Source: Bradyrhizobium iriomotense (lineage in GTDB: Bacteria > Pseudomonadota > Alphaproteobacteria > Rhizobiales > Xanthobacteraceae). From it: a stretch of 64,000 nt of DNA. The first letter of the stretch is position 1, and each line of letters starts with the position of its first letter. The notes beneath the pieces were generated by a model. It did no database searches. It was given only the letters and a program-made list of their open reading frames with translations, and was not told the origin of the DNA. A program made the position numbers and the translations under genes. The DNA is taken from NCBI RefSeq assembly GCF_018130765.1, contig NZ_JAFCJZ010000003.1:1-64000 (forward strand). The letters run 5' to 3'. Shown here piece by piece: positions 529-33,678 of this stretch.

Positions 529-1290
<762 letters not shown>

Positions 1291-1294
1291 TCCC

Positions 1295-2614
1295 ATGAAT
1301 GCCGAGATCCGCGCCGTGAAGACCGCCGCCGAAATCGGCCTGGCCGATCTGTTCGCTGCTGTGCGAAAGGACCTGCCCGGCGGCAGCAGCACCGAGGCGA
1401 TCCGGTCTGATGCCTTCGATCGCTTCGCGGCCCAGGGTTTGCCCCACTCCCGCGTTGAGGCGTGGAAGTACACCGACCTGCGGCGCCTGGTGCGCGATGC
1501 CAAGCCGCTGGCGTCTCGACCTGATGCGGCCGCCAAGACCGCGGCCGGCGGAGCCGGGGCGGTGTTCGCCGGTCTTGACGTTCGGCGGCTCTTGATTGTC
1601 GACGGCGCCTTCGTGCCCGAACTCTCCGATCTCGCTGCTCTCGAAGCCGGCGTCGCCATTCGTGCGACGGTCGAGGCGCTGGCGGCGGAGGAAATGGTTC
1701 TCCCATTGGGGATGGCTGGGACCGATCCGGTTGCGGCACTCAACACCGCGCTCGCCGGCGACGGTGTCGTGATCACGGTTGCCGCCGGTGCCGTCGTGGC
1801 GCGGCCGATTCATCTCGTCTTCGTAACGACGAGTGCTGCGCCGGCGGCGATGTTTACGCGATCGCGGCTGGAGCTCGGTAATGGCGCCTCGCTGACGCTG
1901 ATCGAGACGCATGAAGGACCGGATCAGTCCGACTACCAGGTCAATGCGGCCTTGCAAGTGGACGTCGGTGACAAGGCCAGCCTGGATCACATCAAGATCA
2001 CGAGCGAAGGTGCGGCTGCGCTGCACATCGCGACGCTGGAGGCGTCGATCGGTGCGCGCGCGAACTACCGTGAGTTCGGGTTCACGACGGGCGGCGCCGT
2101 GGTGCGCAACCAGCTCTTCCTGAGACTGGCCGGCGAGGGGAGCATCGCCAGTGTGCACCAGGCGAGCCTTCTGTCCGGCCGGCAGCACGCAGACACCACA
2201 CTCACCGTCGATCATGCCGCCGCAGGCTCGCAGAGCCGCGAGGTGTTCAAGGCGGTGGTCGACGACGAGGCGCGCGCGGTGTTCCAGGGCAGGATCACGG
2301 TGCAGCCGGGCGCGCAGCAGACCGATGCCAGGATGATGGCCCGGGCGTTGCTCCTGTCCGACGAAGCCGTAGCCAATTGCAAGCCGGAGCTCGAGATCTT
2401 CGCGGATGACGTCCAGTGCGGCCACGGCACCACCACCGGCGCGCTGGACGATCAACTGAAGTTCTACCTGATGGCCCGCGGCATAGCGGAAAAGGAAGCC
2501 GAAGCGCTGCTGATCGAGGCCTTCGTCGGCGAGGTGATCGACGCCGTCGCGCGGGATGATCTGCGCGAGGCACTGTCGAGCAAGATGCTCGACTGGCTCA
2601 AGGGGCGGGAATGA
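1295..2614 (+). CDS. sufD: SufD, Fe-S cluster assembly scaffold partner
   Basis: 439-residue SufD, the structural homologue of SufB that forms the SufB-SufD heterodimer on which clusters are built. Family features are RVEAWKYTDLRRL near the N-terminus, the beta-helix core, and the C-terminal segment with ADDVQCGHGTTTGALDDQLKFYLMARG, where the conserved Cys-Gly-His sits. The start ATG at 1295 is 4 bp after the sufC stop. The sufS ATG begins 5 bp beyond its own stop, so translation of C, D and S is probably coupled. Confidence 0.96.
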   Translation: MNAEIRAVKTAAEIGLADLFAAVRKDLPGGSSTEAIRSDAFDRFAAQGLPHSRVEAWKYTDLRRLVRDAKPLASRPDAAAKTAAGGAGAVFAGLDVRRLLIVDGAFVPELSDLAALEAGVAIRATVEALAAEEMVLPLGMAGTDPVAALNTALAGDGVVITVAAGAVVARPIHLVFVTTSAAPAAMFTRSRLELGNGASLTLIETHEGPDQSDYQVNAALQVDVGDKASLDHIKITSEGAAALHIATLEASIGARANYREFGFTTGGAVVRNQLFLRLAGEGSIASVHQASLLSGRQHADTTLTVDHAAAGSQSREVFKAVVDDEARAVFQGRITVQPGAQQTDARMMARALLLSDEAVANCKPELEIFADDVQCGHGTTTGALDDQLKFYLMARGIAEKEAEALLIEAFVGEVIDAVARDDLREALSSKMLDWLKGRE

Positions 2615-2618
2615 TCCC

Positions 2619-3860
2619 ATGCATCCGGCGGTCAGCAACGGAAGCTATGATGTCTATCGCGTCCGGCAGGACTTTCCGATCCTGTCGATGCAGGTGCACG
2701 GCAAGCCGCTGGTCTACCTGGACAACGCGGCCTCGGCACAGAAACCGAAGGCCGTGCTGAGCCGACTAACCGAGGCCTACACCAGCGAATACGCCAACGT
2801 GCATCGCGGACTGCATTACCTCGCCAACGCCGCCACTGAGGCTTATGAGGGCGCGCGCGACAAGATCGCGAAGTTCCTCAACGCGGAGCGGCGCGAGGAG
2901 ATCATCTTCACCCGCGGTGCCACGGAGGCGATCAATCTCGTGGCCCAGACGTTTGGCCGGGAGCGGATCGGCGAAGGCGACGAGATCGTGCTTTCGATCA
3001 TGGAGCACCACGCCAACATCGTGCCCTGGCACTTCCTGCGCGAACGGCAGGGCGCCGTGATCAGATGGGCGCCGGTCGACGACGACGGCAGTTTTCTGAT
3101 CGACGAGTTCGAAAAGCTGCTGAACGAGCGGACCAGGCTGGTCGCCGTCACCCAGATGTCGAACGTGCTCGGCAGCGTCATCCCAGTGAAGGAGGTCGTT
3201 CACCTCGCCCATTCACGCGGAATCCCTGTCCTGGTTGACGGCTCGCAAGCCGCTGTCCACATGGATGTCGATGTCCGAGACATCGACTGCGACTTCTACG
3301 TCGTTACCGGACACAAGCTGTACGGGCCGACCGGCATCGGTGCGCTCTATGGCAAGTACGCGCATCTGTCGGCCATGCCGCCCTTCAACGGCGGCGGAGA
3401 GATGATCCGCCAGGTCTCCCGCGACACCGTCACCTATGGCGAACCGCCGCACCGCTTCGAGGCCGGCACGCCGCCGATCGTGCAGGCGATCGGCCTCGGC
3501 GCCGCGATCGACTATGTCGGATCGATCGGAAAGGAACGAATCCGCCGGCACGAGAGCAGCCTCCTGGCCTACGCCCAGGAACGGCTGCGCGGGATCAACT
3601 CGTTGCGGATCATCGGGACGGCGACTGACAAGGGGCCGGTCGTGTCGTTCGAGATGAAGAATGCCCACGCCCACGACTTTGCAACCGTCATCGACCGCTC
3701 GGGCGTCGCTGTGCGCGCGGGCACCCATTGCGCGATGCCGTTGCTCGATCGCTTCGGGGTGACCGCGACCTGTCGTGCTTCGTTCGCGCTCTACAACACC
3801 ATGGAAGAGGTCGACGCTCTGGCCGAGGCCTTGGTCAAGGCCCAGGAGATGTTCTCATGA
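2619..3860 (+). CDS. sufS: SufS, PLP-dependent cysteine desulfurase (group II)
   Basis: Cysteine desulfurase that mobilises sulfur from L-cysteine for the SUF system; its partner SufE is encoded just downstream on the other strand. About 413 residues. The PLP Schiff-base lysine is in VVTGHKLYGPTG and the catalytic cysteine lies in the C-terminal loop RAGTHCAMPLL. The longer frame open upstream overlaps sufD; the ATG at 2619 (MHPAV) is preferred because it starts just after the sufD stop and matches the family length. It overlaps the following NifZ-domain gene by ATGA. It is distinct from NifS at 16701. Confidence 0.95.
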   Translation: MHPAVSNGSYDVYRVRQDFPILSMQVHGKPLVYLDNAASAQKPKAVLSRLTEAYTSEYANVHRGLHYLANAATEAYEGARDKIAKFLNAERREEIIFTRGATEAINLVAQTFGRERIGEGDEIVLSIMEHHANIVPWHFLRERQGAVIRWAPVDDDGSFLIDEFEKLLNERTRLVAVTQMSNVLGSVIPVKEVVHLAHSRGIPVLVDGSQAAVHMDVDVRDIDCDFYVVTGHKLYGPTGIGALYGKYAHLSAMPPFNGGGEMIRQVSRDTVTYGEPPHRFEAGTPPIVQAIGLGAAIDYVGSIGKERIRRHESSLLAYAQERLRGINSLRIIGTATDKGPVVSFEMKNAHAHDFATVIDRSGVAVRAGTHCAMPLLDRFGVTATCRASFALYNTMEEVDALAEALVKAQEMFS

Positions 3861-4209: not shown

Positions 4210-4653
4210 TCACACGGCTTCCGCCAGCGCTGCGGTCGCGTCGGCCCGCATCCGCGACACCATGGACCGGAAGCCGTTCGAGCGTTGTGGCGTCAGGTGT
4301 TCGCCGAGTCCGAGGCGCTCGAACAGGGCCAGGGCATTTTCGCCGGCGATCTCCGCCGCGGAGCGCCCGGACAAAAGCGCAATCAGGATGGCGACCAGGC
4401 CGCGGACGATGTGAGCATCGCTGTCGCCGGCAAAGCTGAGGAATGGCCGCCCGTCCCGGTGCTCGACGGTGGTCGCCAGCCAGACCTGGCTGACGCAGCC
4501 CTGTACCTTGTTGGCGTCAGTGCGCCGCGCTTCGGGAAATGGCGCCAGCTTGCGACCGAGCTCGATCACATAGCGGTAGCGATCATCCCACTCATCGAGC
4601 AGGGCGAAGTTCTCGATGATGTCGTCGATCGGCGTTGGCTGGGATGGGGTCAT
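4210..4653 (-). CDS. sufE: SufE, sulfur acceptor for SufS
   Basis: 147-residue SufE, which accepts persulfide sulfur from SufS and stimulates it. Family motifs: IIENFALLDEWDDRYRYVIELG at the N-terminus, NKVQGCVSQVWL carrying the active cysteine, and GLVAILIALLSGRSAAEI. It is convergent with the sufBCDS operon (15 bp between the stops), so unlike common sufBCDSE operons here it is transcribed from the opposite strand. Confidence 0.95.
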   Translation of the reverse strand: MTPSQPTPIDDIIENFALLDEWDDRYRYVIELGRKLAPFPEARRTDANKVQGCVSQVWLATTVEHRDGRPFLSFAGDSDAHIVRGLVAILIALLSGRSAAEIAGENALALFERLGLGEHLTPQRSNGFRSMVSRMRADATAALAEAV

Positions 4654-4686: not shown

Positions 4687-5124
4687 TCAGCCAGAGGCTG
4701 CGTGGATGAGGCGCGATGAGCCGTCGCGAGAGGTCGGATCTGCCAGCGCCCGATCGACCGCATCACAGACGGAGTCGAACGAGATCGGCTTGCGAATAAT
4801 CCCGCAAACGCCATGTTCGAAAGACAGCCGTGCGAGCGGATCCGAATTGCTGTCGGCGACAAGCAGGATCGCGGCTCTGCCGAATGGCCAGGATTGCGCT
4901 GGCGGCAACACGTCACGCCGTTCCTGCAGAAATGACACTCCCAGCAGCACCGCATCGGGCGCGTCCATGACGCCGGCCGCCGCCTCGTCGAGAGATGCGA
5001 ATGCGCGGGTCCGGTGGCGCTCACGCAGGATATAGTGGAGCGCGGATCGCACCACCTGTTCGCGCTCGATCACGAATATTGTCGCCGGCGTTCCGGTCGG
5101 CTGAAATCTCGGTTCGAACTGCAT
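4687..5124 (-). CDS. Degenerate response-regulator receiver protein (pseudo-receiver), divergent from nifD
   Basis: 145-residue stand-alone receiver-like domain with no output domain. It keeps the fold pattern (IFVIEREQVVRSALHYIL, PDAVLLGVSFL, AAILLVADS, IIRKPIS with Lys113) but the phosphoacceptor aspartate is replaced by Gly62 and the acidic pair is reduced to Glu20. Phosphorylation is therefore unlikely. The frame stays open upstream to 5616 through the nifD promoter; the ATG at 5124 is chosen because it matches the length of the paralogue at 30680-31114 and lies downstream of a minus-strand -24/-12 motif (5157-5171). It is probably co-activated with nifDK by NifA. Function unknown; a protein-protein signalling or sequestration role is inferred. 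Confidence 0.75.
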   Translation of the reverse strand: MQFEPRFQPTGTPATIFVIEREQVVRSALHYILRERHRTRAFASLDEAAAGVMDAPDAVLLGVSFLQERRDVLPPAQSWPFGRAAILLVADSNSDPLARLSFEHGVCGIIRKPISFDSVCDAVDRALADPTSRDGSSRLIHAASG

Positions 5125-5156: not shown

Positions 5157-5171
5157 GCAAGCTCCATACCG
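5157..5171 (-). promoter_or_regulatory. Candidate sigma-54 promoter for the pseudo-receiver gene at 4687
   Basis: On the minus strand the sequence reads CGGTAT-N5-TTGC, with the essential GG and GC ten bases apart as in -24/-12 promoters. It lies 33 bp upstream of the ATG at 5124 and about 65 bp from the nearer NifA-type site. The -24 element deviates from TGGCAC, so this is a weaker match than that of nifD. Confidence 0.5.
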
Positions 5172-5235: not shown

Positions 5236-5251
5236 TGTTTTGTTTCGAACA
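5236..5251. promoter_or_regulatory. NifA upstream activator site (distal)
   Basis: TGT-N10-ACA exact match (TGTTTTGTTTCGAACA), 110 bp upstream of the nifD -24 element and 65 bp from the divergent minus-strand promoter. The site is palindromic in its conserved parts and could serve both promoters. Confidence 0.7.
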
Positions 5252-5285: not shown

Positions 5286-5301
5286 TGTCGGGTTTGCAAC
5301 A
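5286..5301. promoter_or_regulatory. NifA upstream activator site (proximal)
   Basis: TGTCGGGTTTGCAACA matches TGT-N10-ACA exactly, 60 bp upstream of the nifD -24 element. It closely resembles the site between modA and modD (43094) and the site before the iscA-type gene (15882), which supports it being a real NifA site. Confidence 0.85.
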
Positions 5302-5360: not shown

Positions 5361-5375
5361 TGGCACACTCGTTGC
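5361..5375 (+). promoter_or_regulatory. Sigma-54 (-24/-12) promoter of nifDKENX
   Basis: TGGCACACTCGTTGC is a perfect TGGCAC-N5-TTGC element. It lies 192 bp before the nifD ATG, giving an untranslated leader of roughly 180 bases. Two TGT-N10-ACA sites lie upstream at 5236 and 5286. Confidence 0.93.
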
Positions 5376-5566
5376 AAAAGTCCTTATGCAACGCGACCTC
5401 GCGGAAAGAGATCGCGAGAGCGGCGCGCCGGTTGAGGGCAATCGGCCGAAGGAGAGCAGAGTGACCACATCGGGACAGGTCGCGTTGTGAGGCCTGTCGA
5501 TCGTCTATCAGGCGCTTCGGAGGAGGCGTCCGACCCCTCGCACAGGGATAACCGAAGGATATTCGT

Positions 5567-7069
5567 ATGAGCCTAGCAACCACAGAGAGCGTCGCGGAGA
5601 TCAAGGCCCGCAACAAGCAACTGATCGACGAAGTCTTGAAGGTCTATCCGGAGAAGACTGCCAAGCGTCGCGCCAAGCACCTCAACGTACACGAGGCCGG
5701 CAAGTCCGATTGCGGCGTCAAGTCGAACCTGAAGTCCATACCCGGCGTGATGACCATCCGCGGTTGCGCCTATGCCGGCTCCAAGGGCGTGGTGTGGGGT
5801 CCGATCAAGGACATGATCCACATCAGCCACGGACCGGTCGGTTGCGGCCAGTATTCCTGGGCCGCCCGCCGCAACTACTATATCGGCACGACCGGCATCG
5901 ACACCTTCGTCACGATGCAGTTCACCTCCGACTTCCAGGAGAAGGACATCGTGTTCGGCGGCGACAAGAAGCTCGCCAAGATCATCGACGAGATCCAGGA
6001 GCTGTTCCCGCTCAATCACGGCATCACCATCCAGTCGGAATGCCCGATCGGCCTGATCGGTGACGACATCGAGGCGGTGTCGAAGGTGAAGTCCAAGGAG
6101 TACGACGGCAAAACCATCGTTCCGGTGCGTTGCGAAGGCTTCCGCGGCGTCTCGCAGTCGCTCGGCCACCACATCGCCAACGACGCCGTGCGGGACTGGA
6201 TCTTCGACAAGGTCAACCCGGAGGCAAAGCCGGCCTTCGAATCCACGCCCTACGACGTCGCGATCATCGGCGACTACAACATCGGCGGTGACGCATGGTC
6301 CTCGCGCATCCTGCTTGAGGAGATGGGCCTGCGCGTGATCGCGCAATGGTCCGGCGACGGCAGCCTCGCCGAATTGGAAGCAACGCCTAAGGCGAAGCTC
6401 AACGTCCTGCATTGCTACCGTTCGATGAACTACATCTCGCGCCACATGGAAGAAAAGTTCGGTATTCCCTGGTGCGAGTACAACTTCTTCGGCCCCTCCA
6501 AGATCGCGGAATCACTGCGCAAGATTGCCAGCTTCTTCGACGACAAGATCAAGGAAGGCGCCGAGCGCGTCATCGCGAAGTACCAGCCGCTGATGGATGC
6601 GGTGATCGCCAAGTACCGCCCGCGCCTCGAAGGCAAGACCGTGATGCTGTTCGTCGGCGGCCTGCGTCCCCGCCACGTGATCGGCGCCTATGAGGACCTC
6701 GGCATGGAGGTGGTCGGCACCGGCTACGAGTTCGGCCACAACGACGACTACCAGCGCACTGCCCAGCACTACGTCAAGGACGGCACGCTGATCTATGACG
6801 ACGTCACCGGCTACGAGTTCGAGCGCTTCGTCGAGAAGATCCAGCCCGATCTCGTCGGCTCCGGCATCAAGGAGAAGTACGTCTTCCAGAAAATGGGCGT
6901 GCCGTTCCGCCAGATGCACTCCTGGGACTATTCCGGTCCCTATCACGGCTATGACGGGTTCGCGATCTTCGCGCGCGACATGGACATGGCGATCAACTCC
7001 CCGATCTGGAAGAAGACCAAGGCACCCTGGAAGGATGCCCCGCGGCCGAGCTTGATGGCGGCGGAATAA
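5567..7069 (+). CDS. nifD: Nitrogenase MoFe protein alpha chain
   Basis: 500-residue NifD, alpha subunit of dinitrogenase, holding the FeMo-cofactor and half of each P-cluster. Visible ligand regions: the P-cluster cysteines in [10 protein letters not shown] and [12 protein letters not shown], the FeMo-co cysteine in [10 protein letters not shown], and the cofactor histidine in [14 protein letters not shown]. Length and motifs are normal for Bradyrhizobium NifD. It is the first gene of the nifDKENX operon and has a strong sigma-54/NifA promoter. An 86-bp spacer with a perfect hairpin separates it from nifK. Confidence 0.99.
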
Positions 7070-27344: not shown

Positions 27345-28112
27345 TCAATCCATCGGCGGTCCGAGGTCGTCGTCTGCCTTCTTCTTTTTCTTCTTCTCGG
27401 TCTTCGCCTGTGCATAGGCTCCCGCATTCTTCAACAGGATCGGCTGCTGTCCTTCGACATATTGTGAGATCCAGAACAGGGTCCGTTCCAGCGCCTTCGC
27501 GGCCGCGTCCTCGCGATAGTTGCCGCGCTCGTTGCAGCCAAAGCCCTGGGCGGCTTCGGGATAGGTGAAGGCGCTGACGTCGGGACGCCAGGCGCGGAAC
27601 TGCGTGATTGTCTCGAGCGGAAGCTCCGGATCGCACTCACCGAAATGCAGGAGCGTCGGGACCTTGCGCTTCTCGCGATAGTCGGCGACGGTTTTGCTGC
27701 CGTCATAGCCGATCACGCAGGCGATGCCGTTGACCCTGTTGGCTGCGGTGTAGGCGAGGTCGCCGCCCCAGCAATAGCCGACGACCGCGACCTTGCCGGC
27801 GTCCTTTACCGCGTCGACAGTCGCCTGGATGTCCGAGATCGCCTGCTCGTTGCCGATCTGCGCGCTGATCGCCGCACCCTCGGCCTTGCCGCCGTCGTCG
27901 TGGCCGAGGCTGACGCCGGGCTTCACCCGGTCGAACAAGGATGGCGCGATCGCGACATAGCCCTGGGCCGCGAAGGCGTCGGCGACCTTGCAAATCTCGG
28001 GTGTGACGCCAAAAACGTCTTGAAGAACGACCACGGCACCCTTGGGGGCGTCCGCAGGCTCGGCACGATAGGCGGAGAAACTTGCTCCGTCGCTGGCGGT
28101 CAGTTCGATCAT
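27345..28112 (-). CDS. Dienelactone-hydrolase-family protein with altered triad
   Basis: 255-residue alpha/beta hydrolase of the dienelactone hydrolase type. The nucleophile Cys114 is in VGYCWGGDLAY and the aspartate in HFGECDPELP (Asp161), but the catalytic His, expected in a Pro-x-Ala-x-His-Gly-Phe motif, is Gln189 (YPEAAQGFGC). The C-terminus has a lysine run (EKKKKKKADDDLG). Loss of the histidine suggests altered or lost hydrolysis. It starts at ATG 28112 downstream of the SufT-like gene; the frame is open farther upstream, but that would overlap the SufT-like gene. Confidence 0.85.
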   Translation of the reverse strand: MIELTASDGASFSAYRAEPADAPKGAVVVLQDVFGVTPEICKVADAFAAQGYVAIAPSLFDRVKPGVSLGHDDGGKAEGAAISAQIGNEQAISDIQATVDAVKDAGKVAVVGYCWGGDLAYTAANRVNGIACVIGYDGSKTVADYREKRKVPTLLHFGECDPELPLETITQFRAWRPDVSAFTYPEAAQGFGCNERGNYREDAAAKALERTLFWISQYVEGQQPILLKNAGAYAQAKTEKKKKKKADDDLGPPMD

Positions 28113-28147
28113 TGCATCCTCTCCTCTCCGATGGTCTTTGGTTGTTT

Positions 28148-28474
28148 CTAGAGCAGGCCGAGTTCGAGCTTGACGTCGTCGGTCATCCGCGATGAGTCCC
28201 ATGGCGGATCGAACACCAGCCGCACCGCGACCTTCTCGACGCCGCTGACCTCGGCCACCGCCTTCTCCACCCAACTCAGCATCTCGCCCGCAACCGGACA
28301 GCCCGGCGCGGTCAAGGTCATGTCGATCTCGACAAGGCCGCCGTCCTTCGGCTCGATCCGGTAGATCAGGCCGAGGTCGTAGATGTTCACGGGGATTTCC
28401 GGATCGTGGACAGTCCGCAGCGCAGCGATGATGCCGGCGATCAACGTGTCGTCTGCGAGACCTGTCATCGACAT
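28148..28474 (-). CDS. MIP18/SufT-family (DUF59) Fe-S assembly protein
   Basis: 108-residue MIP18-family protein: LRTVHDPEIPVNIYDLGLIY, IDMTLTAPGCPVAGEML and RLVFDPPWDSSRMTDDVKLE. The reactive cysteine (TAPGCP) is conserved. SufT/PaaD-type members help mature Fe-S proteins. ATG 28474 (MSMTG) is preferred to 28495, which would overlap the upstream gene by 14 bp; GTGAGG precedes it. It is probably NifA-regulated with the TPR gene. Confidence 0.88.
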   Translation of the reverse strand: MSMTGLADDTLIAGIIAALRTVHDPEIPVNIYDLGLIYRIEPKDGGLVEIDMTLTAPGCPVAGEMLSWVEKAVAEVSGVEKVAVRLVFDPPWDSSRMTDDVKLELGLL

Positions 28475-30258: not shown

Positions 30259-30669
30259 TCACGACTCCGCGCAATGCGGCATCACCTCCGGCCGCGTGCA
30301 GCCGTCTAGATCGCTACGCGTGCCGCCGAGCAGCGACAGCACCGGCTCGCGGTCGAACCCGGCGCATCTAGTGCCGTCGGCTTCGATCAGCGGGCGCCGG
30401 ATCAGCAGGGGATCCTCGAGCATCAGGGCGATCGCGCCCGCTGCACCGATCTCCGCCGGCTTCACCTCGCCGGATTTGATCCGCGGCGCGGCCGGGTTGA
30501 ACCAGGACATGAAGGGCGTCTCGCCGAAGAAGGCCTGGAGGTCCTTGGCAGTCCACGGCTCTGTCAGCAGGCTCTTCGCGATCACCTGATGACCCGCTGC
30601 TTCCAGCGCCCGAATTTGCCGGGCGTTGGTTCCGCAGCCTGGCTTTTGGTAGAACAGGACTGTCGCCAC
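30259..30669 (-). CDS. ArsC/Spx-like nitrogenase-associated protein
   Basis: 136-residue ArsC-family thioredoxin-fold protein: VLFYQKPGCGTNARQIRALE, SLLTEPWTAKDLQAFFGETP, LMLEDPLLIRRPLIEADGTR. It keeps one N-terminal cysteine (GCGTN) instead of the classical Cys-x2-Cys. A subfamily named nitrogenase-associated protein has this form. Arsenate reduction is unlikely. It is convergent with the ferredoxin gene (3 bp between the stops) and follows the pseudo-receiver by 10 bp in the same direction. Confidence 0.87.
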   Translation of the reverse strand: MATVLFYQKPGCGTNARQIRALEAAGHQVIAKSLLTEPWTAKDLQAFFGETPFMSWFNPAAPRIKSGEVKPAEIGAAGAIALMLEDPLLIRRPLIEADGTRCAGFDREPVLSLLGGTRSDLDGCTRPEVMPHCAES

Positions 30670-30679
30670 GTCCGGGTTC

Positions 30680-31114
30680 CTATTTCATCATGCTGAGCTG
30701 AACCAGTGGCGCGGCGCCGCCGCGGCCGAGGATCGTGTCGACCTTCTTGCGCACGCCTTCCAGCGTCAGCGGCTTCACCACCGCGCCGTGGGCACCCGCC
30801 TTCATCGCCTCGACCGCGGTGGCCTCGTCGGATTTGTCGGTGACGACGAGAATGCGGACGCCCGGAAACCTGGTGCCGAGATCGCCGATCAGGGCAGGGC
30901 CGCGGGCCTTCAGGAACGAGACCCCGAGCAGCACCACGTCGGGCTTCAGCCAGTCCACGCCCTTTGCATAGGCCTCTTCCGGCGTGGCGAGCTCATGAGT
31001 TTCGATCTCGTCATGCAGCATGAACTGGAGCGCTGCGCGGGTGATCTCGTCGTCGTCGACCACGAACACGCGCCGCTGGTCGACGGCCTTGGCTGTCTCG
31101 ACACCGATCTGCAT
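30680..31114 (-). CDS. Degenerate response-regulator receiver protein (pseudo-receiver), divergent from nifH
   Basis: 144-residue stand-alone receiver domain. The acidic cluster is intact (VFVVDDDEITRAALQFML) and Lys114 is present (AVVKPLTLEG), but the phosphorylation-site aspartate is Gly64 (PDVVLLGVSFLKARGP). It is a paralogue of 4687-5124, with the same LLGVSFL motif and the same position opposite a nitrogenase structural gene. The minus-strand -24/-12 motif at 31152 and two NifA sites suggest co-expression with nifH. Function unknown; it may bind a partner constitutively. Confidence 0.8.
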   Translation of the reverse strand: MQIGVETAKAVDQRRVFVVDDDEITRAALQFMLHDEIETHELATPEEAYAKGVDWLKPDVVLLGVSFLKARGPALIGDLGTRFPGVRILVVTDKSDEATAVEAMKAGAHGAVVKPLTLEGVRKKVDTILGRGGAAPLVQLSMMK

Positions 31115-31151
31115 CTGTCGTTCTCCTCAAATCGCTTCTTCTCTTGGGTTA

Positions 31152-31166
31152 GCAATTTCCGTTCCG
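31152..31166 (-). promoter_or_regulatory. Candidate sigma-54 promoter for the pseudo-receiver gene at 30680
   Basis: Minus-strand CGGAAC-N5-TTGC with correct spacing, 38 bp upstream of the ATG at 31114 and 53 bp from the NifA site at 31219. Confidence 0.5.
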
Positions 31167-31218
31167 CCTGCGCGCCGCGGAAATAGCGGTGCATTTGCAC
31201 CGCCGTCACTGAGATCCT

Positions 31219-31234
31219 TGTCCGGTTTCTGACA
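31219..31234. promoter_or_regulatory. NifA upstream activator site 1 of nifH
   Basis: TGTCCGGTTTCTGACA, exact TGT-N10-ACA, 98 bp upstream of the nifH -24 element; it also lies 53 bp from the divergent promoter. Confidence 0.85.
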
Positions 31235-31247
31235 GAGGCCCTACCTC

Positions 31248-31263
31248 TGTAGGGTTCGACACA
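31248..31263. promoter_or_regulatory. NifA upstream activator site 2 of nifH
   Basis: TGTAGGGTTCGACACA, exact TGT-N10-ACA, 69 bp upstream of the nifH -24 element. Centre-to-centre distance to site 1 is 29 bp. Confidence 0.85.
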
Positions 31264-31332
31264 GCTTCTGTCGGCCGCGCGCGTCGAAATATTTCGCGAG
31301 TGCGATCAGCGTCTTAGTGCGCGCGCAGCGAA

Positions 31333-31347
31333 TGGCACGCCAGTTGC
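31333..31347 (+). promoter_or_regulatory. Sigma-54 promoter of nifH
   Basis: TGGCACGCCAGTTGC, perfect TGGCAC-N5-TTGC, with about 150 bases of untranslated leader before the nifH ATG at 31507. Confidence 0.94.
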
Positions 31348-31380: not shown

Positions 31381-32391
<1,011 letters not shown>

Positions 32392-32467: not shown

Positions 32468-33184
32468 GTGATCGCGGCGCAAGCGAGTACGACCGAAGCG
32501 ACAGTGCGTCTGCCGGCAGGCTCCGACACCGGCGGGCCGCATGCAGGAATAGAATTCTACCGCCTGCTGACCGGGCGCGATCCGGCAGAAGCCGATATCA
32601 GCACCGACGATGATTTCGACCGCCACGTCCTAGCCTCGATCCTGGCCGCGGCCGTGATGGATGGCGGTCCGATCGCAGAGCGCGTCGGTCTTTCGGAGCA
32701 GGAATTCAACAATCTGCTGACCGGCCATTTCCCGTCGGCCACGCTCCGCGCCTTCGCGTGGATACCGAAATCGACCTCCGAGATCGATGACGAGACCATC
32801 ATGGTACGCGACCTCCTGCTCGCTCAGCGCTCGAGCGACGGCGAAGTCGGCCATTGGCTCGCGGCGATGGTGGCACGGCGCGCGATGGAGCCGAACCATC
32901 TCTGGGAAGATCTCGGCTTGCGCGAGCGAGCGGAACTATCGCGCCTCCTGACACGTCATTTCGCGCCGCTGGCGACCCGCAACACCAGGAATATGCGCTG
33001 GAAGCGCTTCTTTTACCGCATGCTCTGCGAGGACGACGGCTTCGTGATGTGCACGACCCCGGTCTGCACGGAGTGCAACGATTTCGCGCTTTGCTTCGGC
33101 GAGGAAAGCGGCGAGAGCCGCATGGCCGAGCGTCGGCGGGAATTTTTGCGCGGCGGCGGCGATCATATCGATGACCCGAGGTGA
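32468..33184 (+). CDS. nifQ: NifQ, molybdenum donor for FeMo-cofactor
   Basis: 238-residue NifQ, an Fe-S protein that delivers molybdenum to the NifEN/NifH complex. The C-terminal cysteine motif MCTTPVCTECNDFALCFGEE (C-x4-C-x2-C-x5-C) is intact. It starts with GTG at 32468 in an otherwise typical context; no nearer ATG preserves the N-terminal domain. It lies 76 bp after nifH, with a hairpin between, and its stop touches the start region of the Irr-like gene. Confidence 0.93.
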   Translation: MIAAQASTTEATVRLPAGSDTGGPHAGIEFYRLLTGRDPAEADISTDDDFDRHVLASILAAAVMDGGPIAERVGLSEQEFNNLLTGHFPSATLRAFAWIPKSTSEIDDETIMVRDLLLAQRSSDGEVGHWLAAMVARRAMEPNHLWEDLGLRERAELSRLLTRHFAPLATRNTRNMRWKRFFYRMLCEDDGFVMCTTPVCTECNDFALCFGEESGESRMAERRREFLRGGGDHIDDPR

Positions 33185-33186
33185 TC

Positions 33187-33678
33187 ATGGACGCGTATCC
33201 GGAAATGTTCGTCATCGATACTTTGGATGCGGAACTGTCTGCGCAGAGCGAAATCCGGGACAGCGAATGTTCCGCATTCCGGCGGTTGCGCGACGCCGGC
33301 CTGCGACCGACGCGCCAGCGTGTGCTGTTGGCAGATTTGCTATTCGGCCAGGGACAGGGACACCGTCACGTCACCGCCGAGATGCTCTTTGCCGAGTCCG
33401 TTGAGGCCAACATTCAGCTTTCCCTGGCAACCGTCTACAACACGCTCAACCAATTCACCCAGGCCGGACTGTTGCGCCGCATTGGCCCGGATGGCTCGCG
33501 CTCGTTCTTCGATACCAACACGACGGTCCATCCGCATTTCTACCTTCACGGCGAGGATTGGCTGATCGACGTGCCGGAGACGCTCGTCCTCGAGCAGATG
33601 CCCGAACCATTGCCGGGGCATGAGATCTCGCGGCTCGACATCATCATCCATATCCGCCGCAAGTCCGGTGATACCTGA
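33187..33678 (+). CDS. Irr-like iron regulator (Fur superfamily)
   Basis: 163-residue Fur-family regulator closest to Irr: LRDAGLRPTRQRVLLADLLF, HVTAEMLFAESVEANIQLSL, ATVYNTLNQFTQAGLLRRIG, and the Irr-type end ISRLDIIIHIRRK. The His-rich site is reduced to VHPHFYLHG. The N-terminal heme regulatory motif (Gly-Cys-Pro) of Bradyrhizobium japonicum Irr is missing, so heme-triggered degradation may not apply. ATG 33187 follows GAGGTG; a GTG at 33181 is less likely. Located between nifQ and nifV, it could link iron status to cofactor synthesis. Confidence 0.83.
   Translation: MDAYPEMFVIDTLDAELSAQSEIRDSECSAFRRLRDAGLRPTRQRVLLADLLFGQGQGHRHVTAEMLFAESVEANIQLSLATVYNTLNQFTQAGLLRRIGPDGSRSFFDTNTTVHPHFYLHGEDWLIDVPETLVLEQMPEPLPGHEISRLDIIIHIRRKSGDT

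Follow-up and report, generated by a model that had tools for sequence, protein, structure and literature searches.

In the 64,000-nucleotide stretch of Bradyrhizobium iriomotense DNA analysed here (the window), hydrogenase genes come after a nif cluster, and two short receiver-like genes are present, one divergent from nifH and the other divergent from nifD (Table 1). The names RcvH, for the nifH-side receiver, and RcvD, for its nifD-side paralogue, were coined in the present analysis. A gap of 392 bases separates RcvH from the ATG of nifH, and on the other side an ArsC-like gene starts ten bases past RcvH. Elsewhere in the window, sufC, sufD and sufS-like Fe-S assembly genes lie upstream of the nifD region (529–3857), an Irr-type Fur-family regulator is encoded in the nif cluster downstream of nifH (33181–33675), and a minus-strand ORF at 27345–28274 appears by eye to be dienelactone hydrolase-like, with a Lys-rich low-complexity tail at its end.

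Table 1. Coordinates of the receiver genes, their neighbours and the associated promoter elements in the window.
Feature	Position	Strand	Basis
SufE-like gene downstream of RcvD	4210..4653	-	ORF, family match
RcvD, paralogous pseudo-receiver, 145 aa from ATG at 5124, opposite nifD	4687..5124	-	ORF, tree, model
RcvD sigma54-type -24/-12, CGGTATGGAGCTTGC	5157..5171	-	motif scan
NifA-type site between RcvD and nifD	5236..5251	.	motif scan
Second NifA-type site between RcvD and nifD	5286..5301	.	motif scan
nifD -24/-12 promoter, by similarity a former nifH promoter	5361..5375	+	motif and leader alignment
Putative nine-codon scar of deleted nifH in nifD leader	5461..5490	+	leader alignment
nifD, divergent from RcvD	5567..7069	+	ORF
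ArsC-like "nitrogenase-associated protein" (TIGR01616), next gene in receiver operon	30259..30669	-	E 1.5e-50
RcvH, stand-alone pseudo-receiver, 144 aa, Gly64 at phospho-Asp position	30680..31114	-	ORF, Pfam, alignment, model
Sigma54-type -24/-12 of receiver operon, CGGAACGGAAATTGCT	31151..31166	-	motif scan, conserved across loci
NifA-type UAS TGT-N10-ACA, common to RcvH and nifH	31219..31234	.	motif scan, conservation
Second NifA-type UAS, common to RcvH and nifH	31248..31263	.	motif scan, conservation
nifH -24/-12 promoter, TGGCACGCCAGTTGC	31333..31347	+	motif scan
nifH (Fe protein of nitrogenase), divergent from RcvH, counted from its ATG	31507..32391	+	ORF

RcvH Is a Stand-Alone Receiver Without the Phosphorylatable Aspartate

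Residues 16–125 of RcvH matched the Pfam Response_reg model (E 7.3e-16, 58.8 bits against a cut-off of 30.2) and no other Pfam domain scored above its cut-off, indicating a stand-alone receiver domain. The initial annotation had described a 144-aa receiver with Gly64 at the phosphosite and the motif LLGVSFL, a description on which the ORF, the Response_reg match and the alignment agree; the same motif occupies the phosphosite region of RcvD. Counting proteins of 120 aa or more, and with degenerate rows dropped from the main alignments, Gly64 was present in 59/59 intact RcvH from the genomes of genus and family, in 82/82 of a second set whose genomes partly overlap the first, and in 45/45 rows of a further alignment, which like some of the others and the tree was made from a chosen subset. 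The corresponding Gly was found in all 21 RcvD, and the three aligned rows lacking Gly64 were all broken copies. Since the phosphosite Asp is absent from every intact aligned homologue, RcvH is not a phosphorylatable response regulator and belongs with the pseudo-receivers, that is, receivers without a phosphorylatable Asp, and Asp phosphorylation at the normal site is therefore ruled out by Gly64.

Other positions of the former phosphorylation pocket are largely kept. Residue 20 is Asp in 79 and Asp or Glu in 81 of the 82 RcvH, Thr or Cys stands at residue 92 in 79 of them, and Lys114 is found in all 82; residue 21 is variable. RcvD differs in having Glu at residue 20 and Ala at residue 92 (21/21). 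The single-chain AlphaFold2 model of RcvH adopts the (beta-alpha)5 fold of receivers (pLDDT 82.9, pTM 0.76), and the Foldseek matches listed for it were receivers with TM scores of 0.63–0.74 by query length.

Conservation along RcvH was unevenly distributed. In 27 chosen rows the N-terminal tail, alpha1, the alpha1-beta2 loop and beta2 had the lowest entropy (mean 0.09–0.26), with beta1, the alpha4-beta5 loop and the beta5-alpha5 loop close behind (0.27–0.32), whereas beta5 (0.80) and alpha5 (0.62) were intermediate and alpha3, beta4-alpha4 and alpha4 were the most variable segments (1.25–1.83); part of this segment conservation is inflated by the contig scan for RcvH relatives, which required MLHDEIE or KAVDQRRV, a filter absent from the genus scan, the family scan and the dN/dS sets. 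In the receiver topology beta2 is an edge strand beside alpha1 and lies away from the usual signalling face formed by alpha4-beta5-alpha5. With the N-terminal tail, alpha1, the following loop and beta2 most conserved and alpha3 and alpha4 most variable, the alpha1/beta2 edge is the probable interface of RcvH.

RcvH and nifH Flank a Common Set of NifA-Type Sites

Two NifA sites shared with nifH had been proposed at 31219 and 31248. Both contain TGT-N10-ACA, and among the 72 related loci in which the nifH start is visible, at least one such UAS lies between the two promoters in 67 and two in 52, so that a chance origin of the UAS and promoter sites is rejected on their conservation across loci. 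Within the 64-kb window, TGT-N10-ACA occurs 12 times against 4.2 expected, a count reached in 1/100 shuffles. Each UAS pair is located approximately 50–70 bases from both of its promoters, at RcvH/nifH as well as at RcvD/nifD.

The initial annotation had missed the outward sigma54-type elements of RcvH and RcvD. That of RcvH is the only match to its motif in the window (0.08 expected), and a reverse sigma54 element was found 47–155 bp ahead of the receiver start in 81/81 related loci (L105–L185, consisting of 80 kept of 124 relatives and one plasmid), compared to a mean of 0.18 and a maximum of 1 in mononucleotide shuffles, which preserve base content only. nifH was divergent from the receiver in 72/72 loci with a visible nifH start, and its -24/-12 element was found in 71 of them. 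Thus, neither of the two observations named beforehand as counting against the annotation, homologues with an intact Asp and absence of nif linkage elsewhere, was made in the aligned homologues or at these loci. Of the 81 loci, 57 have an ArsC-like gene next to the receiver within 400 bp and 13 have a SufE-like gene within 800 bp, while the remaining 11 have neither.

Based on its motifs, the RcvH–nifH gap is a predicted shared enhancer region between two sigma54-type promoters. Having a UAS and a -24/-12 element facing it, RcvH falls by motif within the NifA/sigma54 regulon, and since its own -24/-12 is present in 81/81 loci, it is the predicted first gene of a NifA/sigma54 operon, which here includes the ArsC-like gene. 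A palindrome, GCGGTGCATTTGCACCGC, was noticed by eye at 31187–31204, with the NifA sites on one side of it and the receiver promoter on the other.

RcvD and the Probable Remains of a Second nifH

Within the genome, the paralogue that matches RcvH best is RcvD (33% identity, E 1e-11; the next at 3.6e-7), and the single-chain model of RcvD has the receiver fold (pLDDT 78.3, pTM 0.73), with residues 71–80 modelled less well (mean 65). In the tree, RcvD copies form one clade (support 100/99) inside the RcvH family, with long-branch warnings; independent recruitment of RcvD is thereby disfavoured, with the caveat that long branches meet at this point and that the position of the Methylococcus row is unsure. 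In some genomes RcvD-type copies face nifH followed by nifD.

The leader of nifD in the window offers a further record of this history. Its start resembles the nifH promoter of another genome, G008 (score 50, maximum of 50 shuffles 24), its end resembles the nifH–nifD spacer of the same genome (score 64, shuffles at most 22), and between these two parts lies a short frame, GTG ACC ACA TCG GGA CAG GTC GCG TTG TGA (5461–5490), that resembles the leader and start of the nifH of the window (score 30, shuffles at most 24). As the leader resembles the promoter, start and spacer of nifH, duplication of a [receiver-promoter-nifH] module, followed by deletion of its nifH in the lineage of the window, is probable. 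Duplication of a promoter-plus-gene module, as initially suggested, is thus supported both by the RcvD clade inside the RcvH family and by a nifD leader that looks like that of a deleted nifH copy.

A divergent receiver at both nitrogenase structural promoters, as claimed initially, is true of the genome under study and does not hold generally. Among 13 genus genomes (own included) with an RcvH of at least 91% identity, an RcvD-type copy was intact in 4 and broken in 1, and at E 1e-9 it was not found in the other 8, two of which are assemblies less than 90% complete. Nor can the two copies be given equal status, as RcvD evolves faster and is often not found. RcvD would accordingly be a duplicate that stayed opposite nifD when its module lost nifH by deletion, with its fold kept and under weaker constraint.

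RcvH Is Found Opposite nifH in a Broad Group of Diazotrophs

Matches to RcvH at E ≤1e-12 were obtained in 54/242 genus genomes, with 16 candidates scored per genome, and in 32/296 family genomes. Outside the genus, 57 genomes of the family carry nifD, of which 25 have an RcvH match (one of them broken, G463) and 32 have none; RcvH is therefore not generally needed for nitrogen fixation. In a class sample of 385 genomes RcvH was detected in the own genome and G755 alone, and it was absent from 60 relatives of G755, an isolated occurrence that fits transfer with the nif island.

The named part of the 80 loci kept of 124 relatives comprises Bradyrhizobium, Xanthobacter, Azorhizobium, Aquabacter, Methylocystis, Methylocapsa, Rhodoblastus, Nitrospirillum, Niveispirillum, Azospirillum sp. 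B4 and Roseibium, and metagenome bins labelled Acidiphilium, Sphingobium, Novosphingobium and Parvibaculum were among the others; no locus among these 80 was labelled Rhodopseudomonas. A broad range of alphaproteobacterial diazotrophs carries RcvH opposite nifH. It is also found opposite nifHDK on a plasmid of the gammaproteobacterium Methylococcus sp. EFPC2, where a protein annotated "response regulator" is 51% identical over 91% of the length and has kept the Gly. Past the receiver on this plasmid (L185:9001–13345), the annotations include a truncated haemoglobin and Rieske-type, ArsC/Spx-type and nitroreductase-type proteins among others.

Sequence Constraint on RcvH

The dN/dS of RcvH was 0.09 for a set of nine nodA- Bradyrhizobium and 0.05 for seven BTAi1-like Bradyrhizobium (one of which, G160, is nodA+), and a Xanthobacter-like set gave 0.22. 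Five full-length nodA+ copies gave 0.34, three drifting ORFs (two nodA+ and the nodA- G165) gave 0.90, and the RcvD sets ranged from 0.15 to 0.39. In the nodA- Bradyrhizobium, BTAi1-like and Xanthobacter-like sets pN was 0–0.02 across codons 1–43 and 0.05–0.16 across codons 44–86. Constraint at the DNA level was rejected as the cause of the N-terminal conservation, as pS in codons 1–14 was 0.29 compared to 0.36 for the whole gene, and 0.37 compared to 0.38; N-terminal synonymous differences occur at about the gene-wide frequency, and therefore the protein itself is constrained. Of the conserved post-translational role initially assigned to both receivers, a conserved phosphorylation-independent role of the nifH-side protein is supported by sequence conservation (Gly in all intact aligned copies and dN/dS of 0.05–0.09).

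RcvH Is Missing or Decaying in Most nodA+ Bradyrhizobium Examined

Among the 242 genus genomes nifD was found in 151 and nodA in 130. RcvH was intact in 20 of the 21 nifD+ nodA- genomes, the remaining one having a drifting copy (G165). In the 130 nifD+ nodA+ genomes, RcvH was intact in 11 and degenerate in 14, 6 had the RcvD type only and 99 had no match. Across the nodA- and nodA+ genomes, ORFs that the analyst judged to be drifting (G044, G148 and G165) were scored as degenerate, and so were G039 and G102 with their local frame shifts. The difference in intact RcvH between nodA- and nodA+ genomes corresponds to a Fisher p of 4e-16 with phylogeny ignored; because the lineages are related, loss events are fewer than genome counts, and the pattern may reflect few inheritance events.

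Four of the 11 intact nodA+ copies (G056, G094, G110 and G121) occur in genomes with two nifD loci, where RcvH is about 25 kb from one nifD and lies on another contig than nodA or megabases away; the remaining ones are that of G160 from the BTAi1-like set and six of a relaxed 72–79% type. G094 is Bradyrhizobium sp. DOA9, with its RcvH on the chromosome, and in the sections of PMC6066989 consulted the chromosomal NifA of DOA9 is indispensable for fixing nitrogen in the free-living state, whereas in symbiosis its two NifA are redundant.

We also inspected 30 nodA+ nifH loci, with flanks of 1.5 kb, sampled from the 99 genomes without an RcvH match. None of the 30 had an intact receiver, and 14 retained the reverse sigma54 motif together with an ArsC match; the 16 without this combination may lie in other symbiotic lineages. 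Receiver-like fragments in broken frames, partly recognised by eye, were present at L231, L232, L233 and L240. In these nodA+ loci the receiver decays while promoter and operon partner persist. Linkage alone thus does not preserve RcvH, and the idea that it is a functionless passenger, kept by its linkage to the nif island and the shared promoter, is very improbable: RcvH does travel with the nif genes wherever visible and is easily lost in nodA+ Bradyrhizobium, but its dN/dS is low, its conserved segments are shared up to the gammaproteobacterium, and it was lost in 14/30 loci where the promoter motif and the next gene stayed.

Loss in all symbionts is refuted by BTAi1 and Azorhizobium doebereinerae; because both nodulate and keep RcvH, loss does not track symbiosis as such. 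BTAi1 (G198, locus L127) was counted among the nodA- genomes and is one of the nod-gene-independent nodulators. Nodulating strains of this kind are described in the accessible part of PMC3899966, and nitrogen fixation by A. caulinodans takes place in nodules as well as in the free-living state, as stated in the abstracted portion of PMC2443382. A fitting reading is that RcvH is retained where cells also fix nitrogen outside nodules.

Discussion

Pseudo-receivers are already known, whereas a nifH-tied stand-alone family with a divergent sigma54 promoter was absent from the literature found. Our search, which mostly covered openly accessible papers and these in part, returned no paper describing the RcvH gene or a stand-alone receiver family tied to nifH. 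The gene is unmentioned in the portions seen of PMC4999443, PMC13327599, PMC6066989 and PMC9977809, and nothing in PMC6422874 matched it; RcvH may be among three conserved hypothetical genes, left without names, that are noted as shared with BTAi1 in the consulted part of PMC3169532. A 2025 review calls the switching of pseudo-receivers a mystery in the passages available, and its main text mentions neither nif, FixT and glycine nor stand-alone or single-domain receivers (PMC12632262).

Several known systems resemble RcvH in part. FixT of Sinorhizobium and Caulobacter is a receiver-like protein inhibiting the autophosphorylation of FixL; phosphorylation of S. meliloti FixT was undetected in vitro, and one Cys is broadly conserved in FixT (C64 in Caulobacter), according to the sections of PMC7078487 consulted. 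RcvH likewise is a single receiver domain, and FixT, known here by description, sits in an oxygen/nitrogen-fixation circuit. In contrast to FixT, RcvH lies opposite nifH behind a NifA/sigma54-type promoter, its N-terminal tail is conserved, and Cys is missing from RcvH of the window and from 29/82 other copies; Fe-S binding as in Caulobacter FixT was therefore rejected for the window protein. By analogy, FixT may nevertheless serve as the nearest working model. Aspartate-less receivers such as FrzS and RitR share with RcvH the fold without phosphorylatable Asp and largely the first acidic residue and the Lys, whereas RcvH has Gly at the site, stands alone and is tied to nifH; 11% of Aspartate-less receivers have Gly at this position, and a characterised structure of that type was lacking in 2015 (PMC4395418, in part). 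The NCBIfam FixJ model also matches RcvH (2.7e-11), and FixJ (5xt2) and NtrX (4d6x) are among the Foldseek matches, but RcvH has no output domain or phospho-Asp and scores 43.4 bits against the curated FixJ cut-off of 255.

Since RcvH has lost the phosphosite, is linked to nitrogenase, is conserved, and is missing in most nodulating Bradyrhizobium examined, it probably binds a partner. We estimate at about 0.5 the probability that RcvH is a pseudo-receiver acting by binding and not by phosphorylation, docking in the manner of FixT and being of importance outside the nodule. Judging from promoter anatomy, NifA bound at the two shared sites would fire the back-to-back sigma54 promoters of nifH and of RcvH with the ArsC-like gene, so that RcvH would be made in step with the Fe protein. 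The partner would dock via the alpha1/beta2 edge and not via the alpha4-beta5-alpha5 face, and most likely the action would be stoichiometric docking on a nitrogen-fixation control protein, as FixT acts on the kinase FixL, providing a feedback tied to the nitrogenase level. The loss pattern suggests that RcvH matters when nitrogenase runs outside the nodule and may be dispensable in many nod-dependent symbionts. Counting against this reading, residue 20 and Lys114 are largely kept, which would be superfluous for a pure scaffold, and 11 nodA+ genomes have an intact RcvH while that of the nodA- G165 is drifting.

Alternatively, RcvH could act directly on nitrogenase, most likely on NifH, as a post-translational guard or off-switch responding to ammonium or oxygen, replacing DraT/DraG in many of these bacteria. 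We consider this possible, as RcvH stays opposite nifH even where nifH and nifDK lie apart, as in the window, and as DraT was found in 8 of 58 RcvH+ genomes tested compared to 14 of 20 RcvH- nif+ family genomes (20 of 32 tested), with a Fisher p of 6e-6, phylogeny ignored. A. amazonense, now Nitrospirillum amazonense, carries RcvH, and a DraT match was not found in it (L174/G909). In the portion of PMC3169532 consulted, draG/draT lie upstream of nifH in two Azospirillum and are absent from A. amazonense. However, these enzymes are unrelated to RcvH and the negative association is loose: 8 genomes hold both RcvH and DraT, so the two are not mutually exclusive and strict replacement is rejected. 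One of the 58 RcvH+ genomes (G463) has a broken RcvH, and kinship may explain the DraT pattern. In the fuller version, RcvH would be a hitherto unrecognised post-translational regulator of nitrogenase: locked as a receiver, it would bind the Fe protein or the activator of the latter, set nitrogenase activity in cells fixing nitrogen outside the nodule, replace DraT/DraG in many bacteria lacking it and be discarded by nod-dependent symbionts with host-provided control. This version appears doubtful to us.

We also regard it as rather unlikely that RcvH is still switchable, sensing a metal, a small ligand or modification of another residue in the old pocket and signalling by conformational change. 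The pocket is largely kept (Asp/Glu at residue 20 in 81/82, Thr/Cys at residue 92 in 79/82, Lys114 in 82/82), but residue 21 is variable, and alpha4, which is part of the usual output face, belongs to the least conserved segments. Moreover, Aspartate-less receivers show a general tendency to retain the Lys as well as the first acidic residue, presumably because these stabilise the pocket, as reported in the consulted part of PMC4395418.

RcvH represents a family of pseudo-receivers in which the Gly is invariant, the genomic partner is fixed and the interface can be tested. In nodulating Bradyrhizobium the gene decays, often with promoter and next gene kept, and this amounts to a natural knock-out series, which points to nitrogen fixation outside nodules.
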